The notes below the pieces were generated by a model. That model worked only from the letters and a program-made list of their open reading frames with translations, searched no databases and had not been told where the DNA came from. The position numbers and the translations under genes are program-made. Shown piece by piece: positions 3,798-48,744 of a DNA stretch of 48,744 nt (positions are counted from its first letter, which is position 1; each line of letters opens with the position of its first letter). Where the stretch lies: the IMG/VR virus record IMGVR_UViG_3300037587_000431, positions 1-48,744 of that record; one strand, written 5' to 3'. The stretch is from a virus.

Positions 3798-6599
3798 ATG
3801 GCTTCTACAGACGCAATCCCAATTCCCAAAAAGAATGTAGCTTATCGAGTTTCATTCCCTATTTTCGACGCAGACGGAGACCTTGTATCTGGTGCTGCGA
3901 CTCTTGATAGTGAGATCTCTAAAGATGGTGGCACATTCGCTGATGTAACAGCTGAAGCTACTGAGATAGCAACCTCTAGTGGGATGTACTTTTTAGACCT
4001 TACAGCTACTGAGATGGATGCAGACACAGTAGCTATTATTGTCAAAACTTCTACTGCGGGGGCTAAAACTACGCCTATCGTTCTATATCCTGAAGAGGCC
4101 GGTGACATCCGGTGTGACGTTACTCAGTTAGGAGGTGTGACACAATCGCTTACAGATCTTAAAGACTTCGCAGACGATGGGTATAATCCTGCTACCAACA
4201 AGGTTACAGGGGTGCTATTAGTCGATACGACTACTACTAACACAGATCTTGTAACAGCAGCTGTCATAGCTGACGCAGTGTTGAATGAAGACATGACAGC
4301 TCACCAGACTCAAGGATCTCTTGGACAAGCGATTGGAGATCCGGGGGCTGACGCAACAACTATTTATCAGTCGGTTGCTACTGATGCGGCGGGAGATAAT
4401 ATTGCTGTTGATATTGTAGCTGTGAAAGCAGAGACAGTTCTGATAGTAGCCGATACAAACGAACTTCAGACTGATGATATACCGGGGGCTATAGCAGCGC
4501 TCAATGATATTGCAGCTGGTGATGTATGGGCTGTTGATGCTACAACTCAACAGACTCAGGGAACATTCGGACAGGCGATTGGAGACCCTGTAGCTGACAC
4601 CACAACGATCTATCAGTCTGTAGCTACCGATGCGACAGGAGATAATGTAGCGGTCGATGTAGTGGCAATGAAAGCAGAGACAACACTTATTGTTGCTGAT
4701 ACCGATGAACTTCAGACTGATGATGTGCCTGGGCTAATAGCAGCTCTTAATGACCCTACTGCTGCTGTTATAGCTGATGCTGTATGGGACGAGGCTTTGT
4801 CAGGGCATGTAGCGGGAGGCTCTGCTGGTAAGACTCTTTTGAACGCTGCGGGATTTATTGTGGCAGATGGGACTGCTCAAGCAGGGGCAGCGAGTACGAT
4901 AACTTTAGAATCTGGGGAGTCAGCGACCGATGACTTCTTCAAATTTAACAGGATAGTCCTTGATGGAGGAACAGGAGTCGGACAAAGTAGGATAATCACT
5001 AAATATGTTGGGTCCACTAAGGTTGCGACCGTAGATGCTGCATGGTTCACGAATCCAGATGCTACAAGTACATATATTATTGAGCCAGCATCAGTCCATG
5101 CTGCAACCTCCATTGCTGGGTATCAAGACGGGGCCATCTGGATAGACACTGTAAATGGGGTTGCAGGTACTGTAGACTTTGTTAATGGAGTTGCCAATAA
5201 CCCAGTTCTTACGCTTGCAGATGCTCTGACTCTAGCAACAAGTCTGGGGCTTAGTAGATTCATAGTAGTCAATGGGTCTACCATAACTTTGACAGGAAAT
5301 AGTGATAATTTCACTTTCCTTGGGAGATCTTGGAATCTAGCTCTCGGAGGGCAGAGTATTGATGGGCTGTATGTTATCGGAGCAACCATAAGTGGTATAG
5401 GGACAGGGGCAACTCAACCGCCGAGATTTGAGATTTCTCTTGTAGGAACAAGTACACTCCCAGCTTGTGATATGCTTGACTGTTGCTTCACAGGAACTAT
5501 TACATCCAACCAAATTGGAGATTATGTGTGGCATAGTTGTCATTCAGCATCTTCTACTGCGGCACCCCCAATTTTTGATTTCGGAGCTGCTCTTGGAAAC
5601 ACCCATCTCCACTTGCGGAATTACGCTGGCAGTATGGATATAAGAAACATGGGACAGACAGGGACAGATGAGATGTCTATGGAAGGAGATGGAGAGCTTA
5701 TTATAAATGCAAACTGTATAGGAGGGACTGTTGAGCTTCGGGGGGCTATCGAACTCACAGACGGCGGTAGCGGCCAAACGATTACTCAAGATGCGAGATT
5801 GACAACTCCTAAGATTGCTGACGAAGTTTGGGATGAGGCGACAGCTGGGCATACAACATCAGGAACATTCGGAGAGCAATGTAAGACAGATATCGATGCG
5901 ATCCTTGTAGACACTACGTTAATAGTCGCTGACACCAACGAACTTCAGACGGATGATGTGCCTGGGCTGATTGCAGCGCTTAACGATATAGCAGCTGGTG
6001 ATGTATGGGCTGTTGACGCCACAACCCAGCAGACACAGGGGACGTTCGGACAGGCGATTGGAGACCCTGTAGCAGATACCACAACGATCTTTCAATCCGT
6101 TGCTACGGATGCGACAGGAGATAATATAGCAGTTGATGTTGTTGCTGTGAAAGCAGAGACAGTTCTGATAGTAGCCGATACAAACGAACTTCAAGTAGAT
6201 TGGACAGATGGTGGTCGTCTAGACTTGCTAATTGACGCCATACTGGACGATACTGGCACCTCAGGGGTTGTTTTGCAAGGGACCCCTAGCGTTAACACTG
6301 TTCAGATTGACAGCGTAGCAGTAGCCGCACAGGACCTTGCACTATCAGCTCAGACAATCGTTCAAGGAACTGTGGACACTACAGGGTTTGCATCTACCAC
6401 TACTGAGTTTGAGTCAGATGATATAACAGAGGCTACAGCTGATCACTATAATGGAAGAGTAGTGATATTCACTTCTGATATACTGCAAGATCAAGCGACT
6501 GATATAACAGATTACTCACTTGCAACAGGTAGAGGACACTTTACAGTGACAGCACTAACTGAGGCTCCACCTAACAACGCTACATTTGTGATAGTCTAA
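3798..6599 (+). CDS. Large repeat-containing tail/appendage protein
   Basis: 933 residues. The N-terminal ~100 residues look like a small beta-sandwich domain of phage appendage proteins (strands around VSFPIFDADGDLV and GMYFLDLTATEMDAD). It is followed by long Asp/Ala/Thr-rich repeats. The block with VADTNELQTDD, GDVWAVDATTQQTQGTFGQ and AIGDPVADTTTI occurs in the first third and again in the last third (DNA about 4510-4740 and 5985-6190), with a more diverged copy from about 4303. Between them, residues about 440-650 look like a beta-helix or adhesin-like region. Mini-genes flank it on both sides. It is probably a tail fibre or spike-like appendage, inferred from composition, size and position. 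Confidence 0.78.
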   Translation: MASTDAIPIPKKNVAYRVSFPIFDADGDLVSGAATLDSEISKDGGTFADVTAEATEIATSSGMYFLDLTATEMDADTVAIIVKTSTAGAKTTPIVLYPEEAGDIRCDVTQLGGVTQSLTDLKDFADDGYNPATNKVTGVLLVDTTTTNTDLVTAAVIADAVLNEDMTAHQTQGSLGQAIGDPGADATTIYQSVATDAAGDNIAVDIVAVKAETVLIVADTNELQTDDIPGAIAALNDIAAGDVWAVDATTQQTQGTFGQAIGDPVADTTTIYQSVATDATGDNVAVDVVAMKAETTLIVADTDELQTDDVPGLIAALNDPTAAVIADAVWDEALSGHVAGGSAGKTLLNAAGFIVADGTAQAGAASTITLESGESATDDFFKFNRIVLDGGTGVGQSRIITKYVGSTKVATVDAAWFTNPDATSTYIIEPASVHAATSIAGYQDGAIWIDTVNGVAGTVDFVNGVANNPVLTLADALTLATSLGLSRFIVVNGSTITLTGNSDNFTFLGRSWNLALGGQSIDGLYVIGATISGIGTGATQPPRFEISLVGTSTLPACDMLDCCFTGTITSNQIGDYVWHSCHSASSTAAPPIFDFGAALGNTHLHLRNYAGSMDIRNMGQTGTDEMSMEGDGELIINANCIGGTVELRGAIELTDGGSGQTITQDARLTTPKIADEVWDEATAGHTTSGTFGEQCKTDIDAILVDTTLIVADTNELQTDDVPGLIAALNDIAAGDVWAVDATTQQTQGTFGQAIGDPVADTTTIFQSVATDATGDNIAVDVVAVKAETVLIVADTNELQVDWTDGGRLDLLIDAILDDTGTSGVVLQGTPSVNTVQIDSVAVAAQDLALSAQTIVQGTVDTTGFASTTTEFESDDITEATADHYNGRVVIFTSDILQDQATDITDYSLATGRGHFTVTALTEAPPNNATFVIV

Positions 6600-21132: not shown

Positions 21133-21461
21133 AACAAAGCCCTCAGTTGATCAAGTTTAGGTTCTACATCTTTAAGCCCGTAGACTGTGAAGTAAACTCC
21201 CTCTGCTTTTAAGATGTCCTTTTTCTTTTCTCTCTGACTGTCTGACATTCTCCCTTTCTCTGTCTTAGCTTCGATACCAACAAACAGCCCTATCTCCTCC
21301 CCAACCATATCTTGAGTTACTACGATAGGTAGGCAGACAATAAAATCAGGCGCTCCTCTCTTGCCAAACCTCGTCATAACCGGCATGTAAATAAAAGCTT
21401 TTGCGAACCATGTTTTAAACCACTTCTTAATTCTTTCTTTAACTCTACCTTCAGGGGTCAT
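21129..21461 (-). CDS. VRR-NUC domain nuclease
   Basis: 110 residues, the normal size for stand-alone phage VRR-NUC proteins. TPEGRVKERIKKWF at the N-terminus, GAPDFIVC with Asp39, then VGIEAKT with Glu64 and Lys66, and DSQREK with Gln76, give the PD-(D/E)xK core. Such enzymes cut branched or structured DNA. It is coupled to the gene on each side by four-base ATGA overlaps and lies just upstream of the FlbD-like and SNF2 helicase genes. Confidence 0.88.
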   Translation of the reverse strand: MTPEGRVKERIKKWFKTWFAKAFIYMPVMTRFGKRGAPDFIVCLPIVVTQDMVGEEIGLFVGIEAKTEKGRMSDSQREKKKDILKAEGVYFTVYGLKDVEPKLDQLRALL

Positions 21462-21625
21462 GCGATTAGTATCCTATTTACATAATAATCTTCAAGAACT
21501 GTTCTAGTTTTGACAGCGTATTCACGGGCTTTTAACCAAACATCTATACGAGTATCAGGTCTGTATTTAAACTTAAACCATAGTATTGCTGACCATAGTA
21601 ATATATCTAACTTATCTAATCTCAT
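21458..21625 (-). CDS. 55-residue unknown protein
   Basis: The ATG at 21625 overlaps the stop of the upstream gene (TGATG), and its TGA overlaps the VRR-NUC ATG (ATGA). The product begins MRLDKLDILLWSAILWFKF and is Leu/Trp-rich at the N-terminus, then basic and helical. The N-terminal hydrophobic stretch is short and interrupted by Asp and Lys, so a membrane anchor is uncertain. Tight coupling on both sides supports a real gene. Function unknown. Confidence 0.65.
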   Translation of the reverse strand: MRLDKLDILLWSAILWFKFKYRPDTRIDVWLKAREYAVKTRTVLEDYYVNRILIA

Positions 21626-23245: not shown

Positions 23246-23438
23246 TGTTAAACACCCTCCATAAATGAGTCCATCTGGCTATCTTAACTGCTTTTGCAAG
23301 TTCAGCTGCTTTCATTTTTCTGTAGAAGTTAATTGCAAACTCTTCGGTCTCGCAGCCTCTACACACATAAACAGTCTTACCGTTTTGGCTTGTTGGTTCA
23401 AGTTTCTTTTTGTGTTTCTCGCAGAATAATAGGTTCAT
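23229..23438 (-). CDS. Small zinc-binding protein next to DNA polymerase
   Basis: 69 residues. FCEKH and YVCRGCETEE form a CxxH...CxxC site; the C-terminal half is a basic amphipathic helix. The ATG overlaps the polymerase stop (ATGA), so it is translationally coupled to the polymerase. It resembles the following gene product. It may be a small nucleic-acid-binding partner, but this is inferred from position and charge only. Confidence 0.7.
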   Translation of the reverse strand: MNLLFCEKHKKKLEPTSQNGKTVYVCRGCETEEFAINFYRKMKAAELAKAVKIARWTHLWRVFNNGFNT

Positions 23439-25330
23439 ATCCCCACCATCTCTCCCCAGTTAGGGCCGGTTGAGCCATCCCAAGGTATTGGGATACTAGG
23501 CACCCAGCCCCAAGCTTGTTCATAAGGTAAATTGTTTAAAGTGTGTCGTGCTTCCTGAAGTAGTTCTTTCTTACCTTGCAAGTCTGATGGAACATAGTCA
23601 AACAAAGCATCGTGCAGATCGAAACCAAAGATTAGTTCTGGATACTTCTTGGTTAGTATCGCCAGTGCTAACTCCTTCATATCCCCACCAGTGCCTTGAA
23701 CCCTTGTATTTATCGCGCTCTGCTCTGTTCCCCATCTTCTATCCCCACTCCAATAAACTAACTTGAACCGTCTACCACCTAGAGTCTCTACATACCCCTG
23801 CTCCTGGCCAAGCTTGATGGAATTGCTCCAAAACTTTTTAATCTCTTTGTAGGATCTATCGAAGGTATTGGAGAGGGATTTGGTCTCTAAGAAAGTTAAG
23901 TCCATTCCATAATCTACCCTACTTTTTATCCTCAGTGTTTTAATCCCTATCCTATAGAGCTTACTTAGATTTGTGAACTTGCCTTGATACCGAAAGCCTG
24001 TAGGTCCCGCTACTCTTTGGTTCCCTTCCCTGTAGAGCTTAAGGAAATTGTCAAAAGATATCCCAGCTATCCCAGCTCCTGTAAATGAGTGTATGTCATC
24101 ATCTGGTGGCGGTCTATTAAAAACATCTAGCATTGATGGGTCCTGAGATAGATCAGCTATTATTCGCATCTCTTGCCCTGCTGCATCAAACTCAACAAGA
24201 TCATAACCCTCTGGCGGGTTAATCAGTTTTCTCAGATTCTTCGGGCGGGGCCATTGGTGCAAGGCCATCCCGACAGGGAATTTCCTCAACACTTTCGATT
24301 GATAGGTCATCCTTCCCGTGTATGTAGAGAACAGTTTCGGACTCGGATGTAGAGTGTCCCCAGATTCTAGGTAAGCTCTTACTTTTAACGGTGATTCGAT
24401 AAATTTTGTCAGTTGCGTGTTCAGCTTCCGCCATGCTAAGATCTCCGTTGCTCTGTCATCTAAGTCTGCTAAGTAGGTCAGTGCTGCTTTCCCGCTGGAA
24501 GGTTGCCCTTCAGGAAATTTTTTAGAGGGGGGAGTTCTATGGTCATCGTTAACAGGTAGCCCCCACTGGTTGTACAGAATATCGCAAAGCTTCTGGGGAG
24601 ATCTCAGGAAGGGGGAAGGTCTCCAAAGCCCTGTGCTGGGGTCTTTACAGGTAAGCTCTAGTTTATCCTCTACCTCCTCCATCCCTTTTGTTATTTCCGG
24701 CTTCATCGACTGAGCCAAATCAACGTGCATGTTAACACCATTGACCCAGCTCTTAGCGACCGGCACTAAGCACGAGGCTTCTATAAGGGCGCTCTTCTGC
24801 TGCTGGGGGTTGAGCATAGGCCAAACCTGTTCGACTATAAAGACAGTTGCGAAAGCATCCATCTTGGCTCTACGCTCCCAGTATCGGTCATCCTTATGGT
24901 CCTCCTGCTCCTTCATCTTGATGAACGCAGCGGCCCAATCTTCGAATACCAGCTCTCGTACCCCATCAACTAGGCTCCAAGCAGGGATAGTCTCCTTGTA
25001 CTGGCCGTTTTCGAGCCACTTCCATAGGAGCATACCATCTACCCACTTAAAACGCTCTACGGGGAACCCAGCGGCGGAGAGACAGGCCAAATCAAATATG
25101 CCATTCCATGTAGCATAGAACGTCCCGGCCTGCTCTTGCTGTAGGTGAGTGGACAGCTCTTCGAAGTTGAATGCTTTGCTCTGACCGCTCCGTTTTGCCA
25201 TACCCACATGCGTTATCTTCACCTCCCCGGTTCTGATACGCCAGGGCTGAAGGGCATACTCATCATGCCCTTCTACTTGGGACTTGGTTTCTAGGTCTAG
25301 GCCGGTGAAGATCAACCCTCTATGCTCCAC
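23435..25330 (-). CDS. Family A DNA polymerase with 3'-5' exonuclease domain
   Basis: 631 residues from a GTG at 25330; a TTG at 25315 is an alternative and neither has a good ribosome site. Exonuclease residues are visible: Asp12 and Glu14 (LDLET), Asp80 (WNGIFD) and Asp158 (RRAKMD). Polymerase motif A is FDAAGQEMR with Asp382, Glu387 and Arg389. The O helix reads R447, K451, L455, Y459, so Leu stands at the position of E. coli Phe762. Motif C is LHDA (Asp574), with Ala where HDE is usual. It replicates the phage genome with the primase-helicase. Downstream genes are coupled by ATGA. Confidence 0.92.
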   Translation of the reverse strand: MEHRGLIFTGLDLETKSQVEGHDEYALQPWRIRTGEVKITHVGMAKRSGQSKAFNFEELSTHLQQEQAGTFYATWNGIFDLACLSAAGFPVERFKWVDGMLLWKWLENGQYKETIPAWSLVDGVRELVFEDWAAAFIKMKEQEDHKDDRYWERRAKMDAFATVFIVEQVWPMLNPQQQKSALIEASCLVPVAKSWVNGVNMHVDLAQSMKPEITKGMEEVEDKLELTCKDPSTGLWRPSPFLRSPQKLCDILYNQWGLPVNDDHRTPPSKKFPEGQPSSGKAALTYLADLDDRATEILAWRKLNTQLTKFIESPLKVRAYLESGDTLHPSPKLFSTYTGRMTYQSKVLRKFPVGMALHQWPRPKNLRKLINPPEGYDLVEFDAAGQEMRIIADLSQDPSMLDVFNRPPPDDDIHSFTGAGIAGISFDNFLKLYREGNQRVAGPTGFRYQGKFTNLSKLYRIGIKTLRIKSRVDYGMDLTFLETKSLSNTFDRSYKEIKKFWSNSIKLGQEQGYVETLGGRRFKLVYWSGDRRWGTEQSAINTRVQGTGGDMKELALAILTKKYPELIFGFDLHDALFDYVPSDLQGKKELLQEARHTLNNLPYEQAWGWVPSIPIPWDGSTGPNWGEMVGI

Positions 25331-27411: not shown

Positions 27412-27704
27412 AGTTCTACCCCTCTATGCGCTAAGACCAAAACTTTAACTATCGCAGTCTTAAGGTCGTTGTCGGATGCTTTTACCGATTGGCCTGGAAT
27501 CACCTCTACCTTAGCTACCCAGAGTTTTTTGAGCGAGTGAGGAGCGTCTAAGCGCGGGGCCATAAGGGATACTTTAAACCTCTCCATAAGGCGACCGATC
27601 AAAGGCCCTGTCTCAGTGTAATCCCATGATCCTCCCGTGGGTAGCAGATCTGGTTCCTCATATTCGAAGATAAGAGCAACAGCCCATCTATCGATAAGGT
27701 TCAT
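27408..27704 (-). CDS. 98-residue unknown protein
   Basis: ATG at 27704 overlaps the preceding TGA (TGATG). The sequence has WAVALIFEYEEPDLL near the start, then SWDYTETGPLIGRLMERFKV and a mixed alpha/beta end. No catalytic motif or membrane segment seen. It is part of a run of small coupled early genes. Function unknown. Confidence 0.65.
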   Translation of the reverse strand: MNLIDRWAVALIFEYEEPDLLPTGGSWDYTETGPLIGRLMERFKVSLMAPRLDAPHSLKKLWVAKVEVIPGQSVKASDNDLKTAIVKVLVLAHRGVEL

Positions 27705-27952
27705 CACTCTTTCCCTACGTTGCCATAGCGGACAAAAAGGAGTTTCTTGTTCCCTACGTTGCCATAGCGGACAAAAAGGAGTTTCTTGTAGGCTGTGAGA
27801 TAGTCAATAGTTGACTCCAGAACAAGAACGTCCTCTTTCTTGTTCTTATCCGCTACTCTCAAGGCTTCGTTATGCGAGCTGATAACATACTCAACACCGT
27901 GAATAATACACGCGATTTTTTCTTTCGCGGCTTTTTTCTCTCCGTGGTTCAT
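27704..27952 (-). CDS. 82-residue protein with duplicated C-terminal 13-residue unit
   Basis: ATG at 27952 with AGGAGGG upstream. The helical N-terminus is charged. The C-terminus contains two exact copies of KKLLFVRYGNVG, produced by a perfect 39-base tandem duplication (27711-27749, 27750-27788). The duplication keeps the frame. Without it the protein would be 69 residues. Function unknown. Confidence 0.66.
   Translation of the reverse strand: MNHGEKKAAKEKIACIIHGVEYVISSHNEALRVADKNKKEDVLVLESTIDYLTAYKKLLFVRYGNVGNKKLLFVRYGNVGKE
27711..27788. repeat. Perfect 39-bp tandem duplication
   Basis: The unit beginning TTCCCTACGTTGCCATAGCG occurs twice with no mismatch and no spacer, inside the coding region of the gene at 27704. 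Being 39 bases it adds 13 residues in frame. The lack of divergence suggests a recent slippage event. Confidence 0.95.
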
Positions 27953-29882: not shown

Positions 29883-30160
29883 TATCCTCTCTCTCTCACC
29901 TCTTTAGCTACTCGCTCAAAACATCCTTTAGTGTCTACTCTATGGGGAAAGTAAATCCCGCAAAAAGGATTATGACAAACTTCTGCTTTATCAAAAGGAC
30001 CTTTTCTGATCCTATATTTGTCAGGTCTCATCAATCCTTCGCATCCTATCATATGGCATTTAGGAAGTCTTAAATAACAGTCAGGATGTTTGCTCAAAAT
30101 TCTCCGCGCTCTGCATTTACTGCATCGACACTGAGTTCTTTTATTAAGTGTTATCCTCAC
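29882..30160 (-). CDS. Cys/His-rich zinc-binding phage protein (GTG start)
   Basis: 92 residues from a GTG at 30160 with AGGAGG upstream; it overlaps the primase gene by 17 bases. Two metal sites are visible: CRCSKC at the N-terminus with a later CHMIGC, and CHNPFCGIYFPHRVDTKGC near the end. The order, with PDKYR between, is one I associate with a common uncharacterised phage zinc protein. It is the first gene downstream of the primase-helicase, so a role in replication is possible. Confidence 0.72.
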   Translation of the reverse strand: MRITLNKRTQCRCSKCRARRILSKHPDCYLRLPKCHMIGCEGLMRPDKYRIRKGPFDKAEVCHNPFCGIYFPHRVDTKGCFERVAKEVRERG

Positions 30161-32438
30161 CTCTAACCTCCTGAACGCTTGGCGCTTGGCGTCCCATACT
30201 GAACAGCCATACTCTCTTGAACTCCTCAGCTATGGCGCTGGGATTGGCCTGTAGCCATGTGTCTGTGTTACGCACACTGCGCAGGCGATAACGCTTGTTT
30301 GTATTGGTCTCTGATAGGTTAACACGATAACGGTCTTGGGCCAAAGAGTTTGTAAATTTTGTATACACTCTCCGAACTTGGTAGGCGTCTGCCCTACTGA
30401 GTCTATCTATATCAAGCTGCTGTTTGACGAAACTTTCAACAACCTGAGAATCTACAATATCTCCCTGGAATGGGCCTACATGGTCATCTATGGAGTCAGA
30501 TATAAGCTGTTCAATATTACTCATCGAGGCGTCAACCATAGCTTTCTTGGCTTTCGTCATAGGTGGGGGTTCGGCGTACTTAAATTGGGAGATATCCCGT
30601 TGCCTCATGTAAAGCTCTAAGTGGGCGGGGCCATCTGTTTCCAACCATTCGAAAAGATCTGTATAATACTGGGCTTCGCGCTGGGCGGCTTCGATCTGGT
30701 AAACCCAGAAGCGCCGGTCGTTGTCTTCTATGTTAACCGCATCGAAGTAGTTGGAGAACGCTATAAAGTTCGAGAAGACGTACTCCATACCCTTGCCGCC
30801 GTACTTGTGGTTAATGTTAAGATAGGATTCGGTCATCTGGGAGGAGAGGAGTTGTGCTATGTCCGCATTCATAGCCTTTTTAATGTCGTCTAAACAAACT
30901 AGGGTTGTTCCTGATAAATACTCATTGTACTGACTGCTCTTTTCTAGATCAGTCAGCGTGATGAGAGAGCAGTTGTGAGAACCAAGTATTTTTCGAAGTG
31001 CTTTGTAGAGCCATCCTTTACCGACACCGGGAGTAGATACAAGGAGAGGCGACCACGGGATACGTTTATCAGGCTTCTGTACAGTAGTGGCGAACCAATC
31101 CAATAGCCTATTTCTCGGTTCTTCGTCTGGAAAAAGATATTTAATGTGGTTAAGGAAAACGGCAATTTTATCATGGGAAACCTCTTTGGGTACTAGCAGA
31201 TCAGATCCGGTATAAGTGTTGAAGAACGATTCTTTCTTGTGTTGGGTTATGCGCTCCGCACTAGGCCAATAGATAGTGTCCCTCACCGTTTGTCTGCCTT
31301 TATGCACTAGCCACACAGTAGGCAGTTGTTTTTTGTTTACCCATACATTCTTGTAGCTGTTCTTAAACTCATCCAAGGTAAGGACGGCATAGTTCGGATG
31401 TTTATTTAGGTCAGCTACTCGGTTGCGGGACTCTATAAAGACGAACCGGGAGAGGGCTTTTTGCATCGAGTCCACTTCGTGACTAGGCACTTGGACGACT
31501 GCTCTTGTGGCAGGCTGGACAAGCTGTGTCCAGTTATCGTCTGGGTTGCCTCCGGGTTTGTACTCTCTAAATGCTCTCTCCAACTTTGCGGTACAGTCCT
31601 CCAGACTAATAGGGTCACTAGCAACAGGCTCAAGACGAGAATGAAGCTCCCGCATAAGAATCTTACAGTGTTCAAGGGCGTACCCACGCTCTCGCCAAGA
31701 ACAGGCATATCTAAATACTGTATCGTCCCGTCCTCCTGCGGGTATTTGGTCTGGGAACTCGGAGTATTTAGAGGGGGTGGTGTCTGTAATAAGCGACTGC
31801 GTAACGTTGGCCACTGCCGTTCCAGTATTTCCTCGTTCGGGGGATCTGCCGGTACTTTCATCTTTTCGCCTCTTTATTGTTTCGAACAGGTGTAATGGAA
31901 GATCTGCAATAGGCAGACTCTTTAGTATCCTGTACGTTTTTTGCTGTCTCCATGAGCCTGGGCCTACAACGTACCCGCCGTTGGCTCTTATATCTACCCC
32001 TGGTAATCCAGTGAGGGGGATACCATCGTGTTTGACACTTGTGCGGGTTCTTATATCAAGTCGTTCGATAGTCTCTTCATCTGTCCAGTAGTACAGGTGG
32101 AGGCCATTATTGCAGGATTGGACAGTGAATGTAGGGGGGAGGTATTCTTTAATAGTTTTGAAAGTTTCTAGGCCAGGGCTGTTCTTGTGTTCTGGTGAGT
32201 CAAAGTCGAGAATTACCAGAGATCTGCCGGTTAGCGGGTTAAGGCCAGCGGCGACACCAATGTTATACGGGGTGCGCTTATTCCAATACTTAAGGTGGGC
32301 TGTGAGGTCTTGAGAGGCCAGCTGCGGGTATTTCTTAATAGCCGGTAGGTTGCCATTGGTGATGATTGGAAAGAGGCGCAGGTTTAATGTGGTGAGGTAC
32401 TGGGCGTATTCCAATATGGTGTGGGGTGTGTCATTCAT
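30144..32438 (-). CDS. Bifunctional primase-polymerase / DUF5906-type helicase
   Basis: 764 residues. N-terminal prim-pol (AEP) domain: LVILDFDSPE with Asp78 and Asp80, GLHLYY at 112-117 with the catalytic His, and GVDIRANGGYVVGPGS at 147-162. C-terminal ATPase: Walker A STPGVGKG at 468-475, Walker B LVCLDDIK at 513-520, and FSNYFDAVNIEDNDRRFW typical of DUF5906 helicases. The protein would prime and unwind DNA at the origin. The iteron region lies directly upstream of its start. ATG at 32438 with a weak GAG site. No separate primase or replicative helicase exists in the genome. Confidence 0.9.
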   Translation of the reverse strand: MNDTPHTILEYAQYLTTLNLRLFPIITNGNLPAIKKYPQLASQDLTAHLKYWNKRTPYNIGVAAGLNPLTGRSLVILDFDSPEHKNSPGLETFKTIKEYLPPTFTVQSCNNGLHLYYWTDEETIERLDIRTRTSVKHDGIPLTGLPGVDIRANGGYVVGPGSWRQQKTYRILKSLPIADLPLHLFETIKRRKDESTGRSPERGNTGTAVANVTQSLITDTTPSKYSEFPDQIPAGGRDDTVFRYACSWRERGYALEHCKILMRELHSRLEPVASDPISLEDCTAKLERAFREYKPGGNPDDNWTQLVQPATRAVVQVPSHEVDSMQKALSRFVFIESRNRVADLNKHPNYAVLTLDEFKNSYKNVWVNKKQLPTVWLVHKGRQTVRDTIYWPSAERITQHKKESFFNTYTGSDLLVPKEVSHDKIAVFLNHIKYLFPDEEPRNRLLDWFATTVQKPDKRIPWSPLLVSTPGVGKGWLYKALRKILGSHNCSLITLTDLEKSSQYNEYLSGTTLVCLDDIKKAMNADIAQLLSSQMTESYLNINHKYGGKGMEYVFSNFIAFSNYFDAVNIEDNDRRFWVYQIEAAQREAQYYTDLFEWLETDGPAHLELYMRQRDISQFKYAEPPPMTKAKKAMVDASMSNIEQLISDSIDDHVGPFQGDIVDSQVVESFVKQQLDIDRLSRADAYQVRRVYTKFTNSLAQDRYRVNLSETNTNKRYRLRSVRNTDTWLQANPSAIAEEFKRVWLFSMGRQAPSVQEVRGEDNT

Positions 32439-32481
32439 AGTTTCTCACTGTAGGCAGGAGATTTAGCTTGGATCTTGGAGC

Positions 32482-32566
32482 GGGGCGCTGAGCGCTTGGC
32501 CTACTTGGTCCCAATCTGCCGGAGAGGTAATCGAACCGGGAGGAAACCAACAAGGCTCAGCGCCCC
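32482..32566. repeat. 12-bp inverted repeat with internal smaller pairings
   Basis: GGGGCGCTGAGC at 32482-32493 and its perfect complement GCTCAGCGCCCC at 32555-32566 enclose 61 bases. The pairing extends past one bulged G with CTTG/CAAG, then TTGG (32505-32508) with CCAA (32547-32550) and a CCGG self-match. It lies 44 bases upstream of the primase start. It could be a structured leader RNA of the primase transcript, a replication-origin hairpin or an attenuator. No T-run follows on either strand. Confidence 0.75.
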
Positions 32567-32634
32567 TGAGATGTAGATTATAGCATAAAAGGGAGAAGTG
32601 CAAGGGGCTAAGGGCTTGGGACTAGGTGGGCCAA

Positions 32635-33060
32635 GGTTGGGACAGTAGGTAGGGACAGCTGTAGATACCATAAACACTGGGCTGTTGCGGGTTGTCCCAG
32701 TTGGGTTACACTATCTATAAATATAGATATTAGTGCATTAGTGGTATAGAGGGGTAGGACAAGGGGTAGAGAGAGGTATAGGGGTGCTAGAATGGGGAGG
32801 TGGGACAAGCTGGGACAGGCGAGCTGGGACAGGGGTTAAGTGTTTGAGATGTATAGGGGAAAGAGGTGGGTCACAGTAGGGCTTGGAGCTGGGACAGAGA
32901 GGAGGAAATAAGGGTAATTAAGAGGAAATAAGAGGTGGGAGGAGCTTAAATAAGGGAATAGGAAATACTGAGGGCTTAAATAAGGAAATAGGAAAATACT
33001 GAGGGCTTAAATAAGGAAATAAGAGGTTAGCTTAAATAAGATAGGCGCTTAAATAAGCTA
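32635..33060. repeat. Iteron-rich AT/G-rich region, candidate replication origin
   Basis: No gene is visible here. GCTTAAATAAG occurs five times (32944, 32974, 33005, 33030, 33047). Two of these sit in 28-base perfect direct repeats at 32963-32990 and 32994-33021. GCTGGGACAG occurs three times (32809, 32823, 32888). TATCTAT/ATAGATA (32712-32718, 32723-32729) forms an AT-rich hairpin. Direct repeats beside an AT-rich segment and a primase gene are the hallmark of an iteron origin. Function is inferred. Confidence 0.6.
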
Positions 33061-33080
33061 ATTAAGGATTTTAAGAGTGC

Positions 33081-33302
33081 TTATTTTTTAGAGTAGTTGG
33101 TAGTGACTAAGCGAAAATGGGCTTTGCACTTGGGGCATGGGAGTAGATAATGGGGCGCTGGGTGTATGTGGGACTCCAGATACAAGGTATCGCACATGCA
33201 GTTATATTGATAGATAATTGGGAAGTTATAGATAGTTCCTCTGAAAAGTGAGATCTTAATGGGAGGGATGGTGTTAACTGGAATGTTGAGTAACCGGCAC
33301 AT
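33081..33302 (-). CDS. 73-residue zinc-ribbon-like protein
   Basis: ATG at 33302 with AAAGGTGG seven bases upstream; a GTG three codons before is weaker. The end YLLPCPKCKAHFRL and an earlier CMCDTLYLESHIH give Cys/His metal ligands (CxC...CxxC). The first half is beta-rich. It is the gene nearest the candidate origin on its upstream side. Function unknown. Confidence 0.7.
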   Translation of the reverse strand: MCRLLNIPVNTIPPIKISLFRGTIYNFPIIYQYNCMCDTLYLESHIHPAPHYLLPCPKCKAHFRLVTTNYSKK

Positions 33303-33355
33303 TGTAACCACCTTTAAAGACTGATGGGTATAATAGGGTTTATTGGTTTGGTTGT

Positions 33356-47990: not shown

Positions 47991-48744
47991 ATGAACCTGT
48001 TAAGACCAGAACAAGTTAAAGAACTCGATCAGGAGGAAGGGCATACTAAATACATGCTGAAGCAGCCTGATACAGATAAAGGCACTCTGAACAAGCAGCT
48101 CCATAGAATCCAGAAGATGCGGGTTGATCAATCGCCTCCAACTGTTGACGGCGCGCAGATGGATAAGCTCATTGTAAGAAATGAAGACCTTTTAGGTAAA
48201 ATTCTTCAGGGGATGCCCTCTCAAGAAGAGATGAGAAAAGCCCCTCCCGGTTCTGTAAGTAAACACATTGCCTGGGAGAAGCGGAACAAGAAGGCTATTG
48301 TTGAGTGGAAGAATAACCAGCTTACTATCAACAAAGGAAGTGAGTCTAACGACATTGCAAACTTGGAACTTCACAGACCTGTCAAGTCTACTCTCAGTAT
48401 GGACAACGCTCTGATCCCTGGTAAGCAGTACCATATGCCTGATGGACCTCTAACCTTACACAATATTATGGCTGATGGGGATAAGGAGCAGTTAGAAGGT
48501 ACAAGGTTAGACCTCATCCAACAAGCACTTGATAATGATGATGAGAAGCTTGCGAGGTTTATTGGTGTTGACCTACAAGCTTTGAAAGACAAATTAGCGA
48601 AAGATTCTGAAGCGATCAGAGCTAGACAGTCTGAAGCAGAGGAACTTGAAAAGCTTAATGAGTCTACAGAAGAACTCAAAAACACTAGCGAGCTTAAAGC
48701 AGAAGACTTTGAAATAGTCGAACCTGAGAAAGGTACAGGCTCAA
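47991..48744 (+). CDS. Virion-region protein of unknown function, 5' part (continues at base 1)
   Basis: An ATG at 47991 opens a frame with no stop to the end of the window. It continues at base 1 and ends with TAA at 142-144 after circular joining, giving about 256 residues. The protein is hydrophilic and charged, with a C-terminal Glu/Lys-rich helical stretch likely to form a coiled coil and a basic tail ending in Lys residues. It follows the terminator at 47947-47978 and precedes the ConA-like gene, so it lies between the capsid and tail modules. I do not recognise a family. A structural or assembly role is inferred from position only. Confidence 0.85.
   Translation, partial: MNLLRPEQVKELDQEEGHTKYMLKQPDTDKGTLNKQLHRIQKMRVDQSPPTVDGAQMDKLIVRNEDLLGKILQGMPSQEEMRKAPPGSVSKHIAWEKRNKKAIVEWKNNQLTINKGSESNDIANLELHRPVKSTLSMDNALIPGKQYHMPDGPLTLHNIMADGDKEQLEGTRLDLIQQALDNDDEKLARFIGVDLQALKDKLAKDSEAIRARQSEAEELEKLNESTEELKNTSELKAEDFEIVEPEKGTGS
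48618..48744. repeat. Right copy of 127-bp terminal identity (circular closure overlap)
   Basis: Second copy of the sequence at 1-127. Joining base 48617 to base 1 keeps the reading frame of the gene starting at 47991, which supports circular closure. The unique genome length is therefore about 48,617 bp. Confidence 0.95.

Follow-up and report, generated by a model that had tools for sequence, protein, structure and literature searches.

The window analysed here is the whole 48,744-nt stretch of DNA, a 48.7-kb virus record that looks complete. A perfect 127-bp repeat occupies both ends (positions 1-127 and 48618-48744). Because 127 is the largest k-mer in common use among metagenome assemblers, the repeat probably reflects the joining of a circular or permuted genome by assembly rather than biological ends. 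The locus of interest is a non-coding gap that is bounded in the ORF lists by the ATG of a primase-helicase gene (32438) and the stop codon of a small ORF (33081) (Table 1). The helicase part of the primase-helicase matches the NrS-1 primase (6k9c/6k9e; E 1e-18), which is the best solved-structure match, and the Prim-Pol part matches pRN1 ORF904 (1rni; E 4e-5). A match to the P4 primase C-terminal model (TIGR01613, NCBIfam) is weak and falls below the cut-off (20.3 versus 108.7 bits). The C-terminal ~125 residues are modelled in the order helix-helix-helix-strand-strand with low confidence (pLDDT 42; 32 in the other model), and by this order of secondary-structure elements the region could form a winged helix. 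The AlphaFold models were built from two-sequence alignments and were too poor for fold searches. The small ORF on the other side of the gap may encode a zinc-ribbon protein, and no candidate for a regulator was detected next to the gap. The phage also encodes a family A DNA polymerase (23435-25330), and its terminase genes are located ~5 kb from the gap. In L010 (6428-8690), the homologue of this polymerase occupies two ORFs, and ~350 bp separate the matching parts, as an intron, an insertion or a frameshift would produce. Elsewhere in the window, a perfect 39-bp tandem duplication (27711-27788) forms a 13-codon repeat inside a small minus-strand ORF (27704-27952).

The boxes, the 28-bp repeat and the hairpin that the first-pass annotation had described in a ~640-base gap before the primase-helicase gene are all present where it had placed them, and the gap measures 642 bp. 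In a scan for 9-mers found at least three times per 300 bp on either strand, the gap scores 15, and the rest of the genome and shuffled genomes score 1 at most; the score and its threshold were chosen post hoc, with the finding already in view. Both the G skew (0.69) and the purine bias reach their genome maximum in the gap. The gap also contains the only perfect inverted repeat of at least 12 bp with a loop of up to 90 nt in the genome. When 20-bp inverted pairs are sought within 150 bp at a minimum of 17 matches, the genome yields one, again in the gap, and eight shuffled genomes yield none. Composition-matched shuffles of the gap occasionally reach five copies of some 10-mer (3 of 1000) because the gap is compositionally simple. 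Rfam and tRNA scans returned nothing real.

The central part of the gap is organized around a (T/A)GGGAC core. Three exact GCTGGGACAG boxes (32809, 32823 and 32888) belong to a wider set of nine (T/A)GGGAC sites, which includes those in the arms of an inverted repeat. Five of the nine are found to the left and four to the right of the gap's most AT-rich 40 bp. The TGGGACA word occurs six times in the gap, against a maximum of two in 1000 gap shuffles, and a variant, TAGGACA, is observed at 32755. The AT-rich segment accommodates a 7-bp hairpin, TATCTAT-AAAT-ATAGATA (32712-32729; arms 32712-32718 and 32723-32729), and positions 32705-32734 rank fourth among the weakest 30-bp duplex segments genome-wide.

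A second array consists of five exact GCTTAAATAAG boxes (32944, 32974, 33005, 33030 and 33047), all on the plus strand with start spacings of 30, 31, 25 and 17 bp. No exact copy is found elsewhere in the genome, and with up to one mismatch, the genome contains six sites versus 1.4 expected. The box is near-palindromic, CTTA(AA)TAAG, and the array spans 114 bp on a strongly purine-biased strand with weak AT-tract phasing. The array is probably an accessory part that aids unwinding as AT-rich DNA or provides sites for a second protein. The first-pass annotation had put this array first; all of its boxes are real, but the set most similar to known origin iterons is that of the (T/A)GGGAC sites around the AT hairpin. 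Seven IMG/VR contigs that carry three CTTAAATAAG copies in a row were rejected as relatives; in six, unrelated genes are preceded by tandem 17-bp units (TTTGCCTTAAATAAGTA), and the seventh has 38-bp units. In L004-L009, which are AT-rich phages, tandem arrays of the 17-bp TTTGCCTTAAATAAGTA vary in length and directly precede a TTGACATATAATG-like promoter sequence and small unrelated genes, and they are possibly operator arrays.

At the primase end of the gap, the mRNA of the primase gene is expected to start near 32570. Each arm of the inverted repeat contains TTGGGAC, and the arms flank the predicted promoter. The stem-loop at the expected 5' end of the mRNA has a 61-nt span between its arms and folds well in both forms (z values of -3.5 as RNA and -3.7 as DNA).

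Table 1. Features in and around the gap upstream of the primase-helicase gene.
Feature	Coordinates	Strand	Remarks
Primase-helicase, candidate initiator	30144-32438	-	764 aa; Pfam Prim-Pol, PriCT_1 and DUF5906
Candidate origin and promoter region (non-coding gap)	32439-33080	.	642 bp; ORF lists, top repeat cluster, G skew, purine bias
Stem-loop	32482-32566	-	85 nt; 12-bp perfect outer stem; expected 5' end of primase mRNA
Inverted repeat, candidate autoregulatory operator	32495-32635	.	arms 32495-32514 and 32616-32635; 17/20 match
Left iteron set, core (T/A)GGGAC	32508-32699		32508(-), 32617(+), 32638(+), 32651(+), 32694(-)
Predicted extended -10 promoter of primase gene	32577-32585	-	TGCTATAAT; read by eye from sequence; -35 poor
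Candidate melting site	32701-32740	.	gap's most AT-rich 40 bp (75%); contains 7-bp hairpin
Right iteron set, TGGGACA(A/G)	32801-32897	+	32801, 32811, 32825, 32890
Second array, five GCTTAAATAAG boxes	32944-33057	+	candidate accessory iterons or AT-rich unwinding repeats
Perfect direct repeat, 28 bp	32963-33021	+	32963-32990 = 32994-33021; one GCTTAAATAAG box per copy
Small ORF bounding the gap	33081-33311	-	76 aa; cysteine pairs; weak Pfam matches only, below cut-off

When viral and bacterial collections were searched for the primase with one sequence or a two-sequence alignment, a single useful relative emerged, contig IMGVR_UViG_3300037751_000148 (L012; hereafter G003), and no close relative was found. 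G003 shares 66% identity with the window in TerL, 48% in DUF932, 47% in RadC and 34% in the primase, and it has the same gene neighbourhood except that DUF932 and RadC are swapped. At 34% identity G003 is not close, and none of the window's boxes recur in it: CTTAAATAAG has no exact copy and one single-mismatch site elsewhere in the record. The gap of G003 between DUF932 and the small gene upstream of the primase instead contains ten copies of TGATGCA in both orientations, six to the left and four to the right of an AT-rich segment with an (AT)11 tract. Nine of the 12 TGATGCAG sites in the G003 record are located in or near the primase gene and this gap, and eight are clustered within 274 bp of the gap. 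The same gap comprises the strongest repeat cluster, the weakest 30-bp duplex and the only inverted pair with at least 17 of 20 matches in G003. It contains no equivalent of the window's stem-loop, just one built of iterons.

The strand composition of G003 also changes at this place. The cumulative skew minimum lies at 6034, ~1 kb from the cluster, and the third-position GC skew of minus-strand genes shifts from -0.18, -0.01 and -0.13 on one side to +0.29 and +0.32 on the other with gene direction unchanged. In the window, the switch is less clean than in G003; the minimum of the cumulative detrended skew falls 2 kb left of the iterons, at ~30.6 kb, and the third-position skew to the right of the gap is approximately zero, not positive. 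The TerL relatives G004-G006 gave no primase match and contain no comparable array except for one cluster in G006. This cluster (21175-21475; CTAGTTATA and CTAGAGTAA) is strong and non-coding and could be another origin. TerL itself is interrupted in some relatives: in-frame insertions near residues 101-111, with weak Hint/intein model matches, are found in L036 (494-2701; L012 terminase) and L023 (494-3178). The L023 insertion also matches a LAGLIDADG endonuclease, and TerL of the window lacks such an insertion. In L016 (12078-15323), the portal gene match is broken by ~980 bp near residues 70-74, perhaps through an inserted element.

The association between repeats and primase was evaluated in a phylogenetically unbalanced sample of 18 phages, including the window and G003, whose primases match the window's family. 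A non-coding repeat cluster with a score of at least 5 occurs within 700 bp of the primase gene in seven of the 18 phages, compared with three of 202 control genes (other genes of at least 250 aa); one of the three positive controls is G003 DUF932, which touches the primase-gap cluster of G003. The repeat of PW916 is Glu-rich and probably coding and was rejected as iterons, which leaves six of 18. Without the window and G003, the proportions are 5/16 and 2/166 (p 5e-5), or 4/16 when PW916 is also removed. Repeat peaks near the primases of R16L, AXL3 and the MAG contig L084 were discarded as coding or probably coding. By the score used, approximately two-thirds of the sampled primase genes (RDJL3, HHU4, Scuro, KPP23, Jess A and others) have no such cluster nearby, and Jess A, a Rauchvirus according to its record, has no inverted repeat of the window's stem-loop type near its primase.

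The iteron words are unrelated to each other: GGTGAC in Escherichia coli phage 611R5, AAAGTGC in Serratia phage Scapp, CCCGGGTC in Nostoc phage Nsp-JY18, AACTA(G/C)GA in Achromobacter phage AXY1 and GTTACA in Salmonella phage Chi, whose cluster is below the threshold and is separated from the primase gene by one small HTH gene. The most AT-rich 40 bp are found between iteron copies in Chi, Scapp, AXY1 and Nsp-JY18. In 611R5, they lie outside the iterons, and the interval between its two iteron groups is AT-rich by eye. The cluster is located 3' of the primase gene in these five phages and 5' in the window and G003. Direct homology of the iteron sites is not demonstrable because the iteron sequences are not conserved.

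Several known origins resemble the gap in part. Iteron plasmids of the RK2, F and P1 type combine direct iterons, adjoining AT-rich repeats and inverted partial iterons at the initiator promoter, and the window exhibits all three; however, no RepA/TrfA-type initiator was found among the genes scanned, and the gap contains no DnaA box (TTWTNCACA, up to one mismatch). A likeness in layout is also provided by phage satellites. PICI origins always contain two iteron sets that flank an AT-rich region (PMC6092414), and two helicases, Rep of SaPI and Cch2 of SCCmec, use their C-terminal domain to bind iterons adjoining their own genes (PMC7581432). As in the window, the iteron sets of the SaPI/PICI pri-rep-ori module flank the AT-rich region beside a primase-helicase gene, and the words vary by element (PMC6092414, PMC7581432). 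The SaPI/PICI cluster is immediately 3' of the initiator gene, whereas that of the window is 5', as in G003. Moreover, the window represents no satellite but a tailed phage of 48.7 kb that encodes a DNA polymerase of its own, and it has an additional GCTTAAATAAG array, a promoter-flanking inverted repeat and a leader stem-loop. In P4, a single protein, alpha, likewise combines primase and helicase; it recognizes origin repeats via a winged helix (PMC4234260). The P4 alpha primase is of the Toprim type, in contrast to the archaeo-eukaryotic Prim-Pol of the window, whose protein fails the P4-family C-terminal model. pRN1 ORF904 and phage BIP-1 share with the window a Prim-Pol and helicase replication protein and a stem-loop near its gene; pRN1 requires its stem-loop, which has a stem of 21 nt and a loop of 58 nt, and BIP-1 has been proposed to carry a similar structure (PMC4234260). 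However, pRN1 has no iterons and its stem-loop lies 3' of the gene, whereas iterons dominate in the window and the stem-loop is 5'. NrS-1 uses an 8-nt priming site present twice, without an iteron cluster (PMC7102993), with GTG(A/G) as its priming motif (PMC8718748). Its protein matches that of the window over the helicase part, but GTG(A/G) is not enriched in the window's gap, and the idea that the iterons are GTG priming sites of the NrS-1/pRN1 kind was dropped on this ground.

Taken together, the gap is probably the replication origin of the phage, an iteron origin opened by a self-loading primase-helicase with an organization similar to those of SaPIs/PICIs and P4. The first-pass annotation had already suggested a candidate replication origin, and the comparative evidence strengthens this proposal: different iterons surround an AT tract at the same place in G003, clusters are far more frequent beside primases than beside controls, and the skew switches in G003. 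A self-loading initiator at the gap is the most economical reading because the PICI layout and the iteron binding of SaPI Rep and Cch2 are published. What is directly seen comprises the repeats and where they lie, the protein's domains and the recurrence of the layout beside related genes in other phages; from these observations we infer origin firing at the gap along with the following steps. The Prim-Pol/DUF5906 protein or its oligomer would recognize the (T/A)GGGAC iterons on both sides of the AT-rich hairpin, assemble a ring helicase there, melt the AT-rich core and prime synthesis, and the family A DNA polymerase would extend the primed strand. The initiator may also repress its own gene, in the manner of iteron-plasmid Rep proteins, as judged from the inverted TTGGGAC repeats on either side of the extended -10 promoter.

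Some observations fit the origin reading poorly. The skew minimum of the window is displaced from the iterons and its third-position skew is close to zero to the right of the gap; most sampled primase genes lack a cluster; the gap is 5' of the gene, versus 3' in PICIs, SaPIs and most sampled phages; the AT-rich segment of 611R5 is outside its iterons; and the C-terminal winged-helix models are of low confidence. In an unlikely alternative, replication does not start here at all, and a regulator of the early operon uses the CTTA(AA)TAAG boxes and the inverted TTGGGAC pair as its operators. The near-palindromic form of GCTTAAATAAG, the position of the promoter between the inverted arms and the arrays of 17-bp units with the same CTTAAATAAG core that immediately precede promoter-like sequence in unrelated AT-rich phages are consistent with such transcription control. 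However, GCTTAAATAAG precedes the only good promoter by 360-480 bp, a regulator gene is not found beside the gap, and operators would leave unexplained both the iterons around the AT-rich core and their recurrence, with unrelated sequences, beside related primases.

Less likely again is assembly of the Prim-Pol/SF3-type protein at the stem-loop, as in pRN1, with the repeats as auxiliary elements. ORF904 is a sequence relative with a stem-loop requirement of its own, and the window contains no second stem-loop of the kind seen in the gap, which itself has a good fold as DNA. Its position, however, is where the 5' end of an mRNA is expected, which makes a leader hairpin an ordinary alternative, and neither G003 nor the surroundings of the Jess A primase contain an equivalent. 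Repeat arrays also occur generally in pac and parS regions, and the terminase genes are only ~5 kb away, but a packaging start, a partition site or another DNA site with no role in initiation is very improbable: no partition protein was detected among the genes scanned, and the cluster accompanies the primase gene across phages that differ in their packaging genes.

The repeat sequences of the gap are unfamiliar, but the layout of the candidate origin is itself known from phage satellites. As a tentative and rather doubtful extension, tailed phages with Prim-Pol/DUF5906 proteins might share a satellite-like origin module in which word turnover between lineages is almost complete and initiators and iterons co-evolve as incompatible pairs; the window would then have gained a second array of five GCTTAAATAAG boxes that is read by a second protein or another domain of the initiator. 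The candidate origin reading gives a lineage with no cultured phages a concrete origin and connects that lineage with other phages that share its replicase. Should the reading be correct, the iteron-AT-iteron layout, which was described as special to PICIs (PMC6092414), also serves autonomous tailed phages, and origins would be predictable from a repeat cluster beside a Prim-Pol/DUF5906 gene despite the lineage-specific sequence of the iterons.
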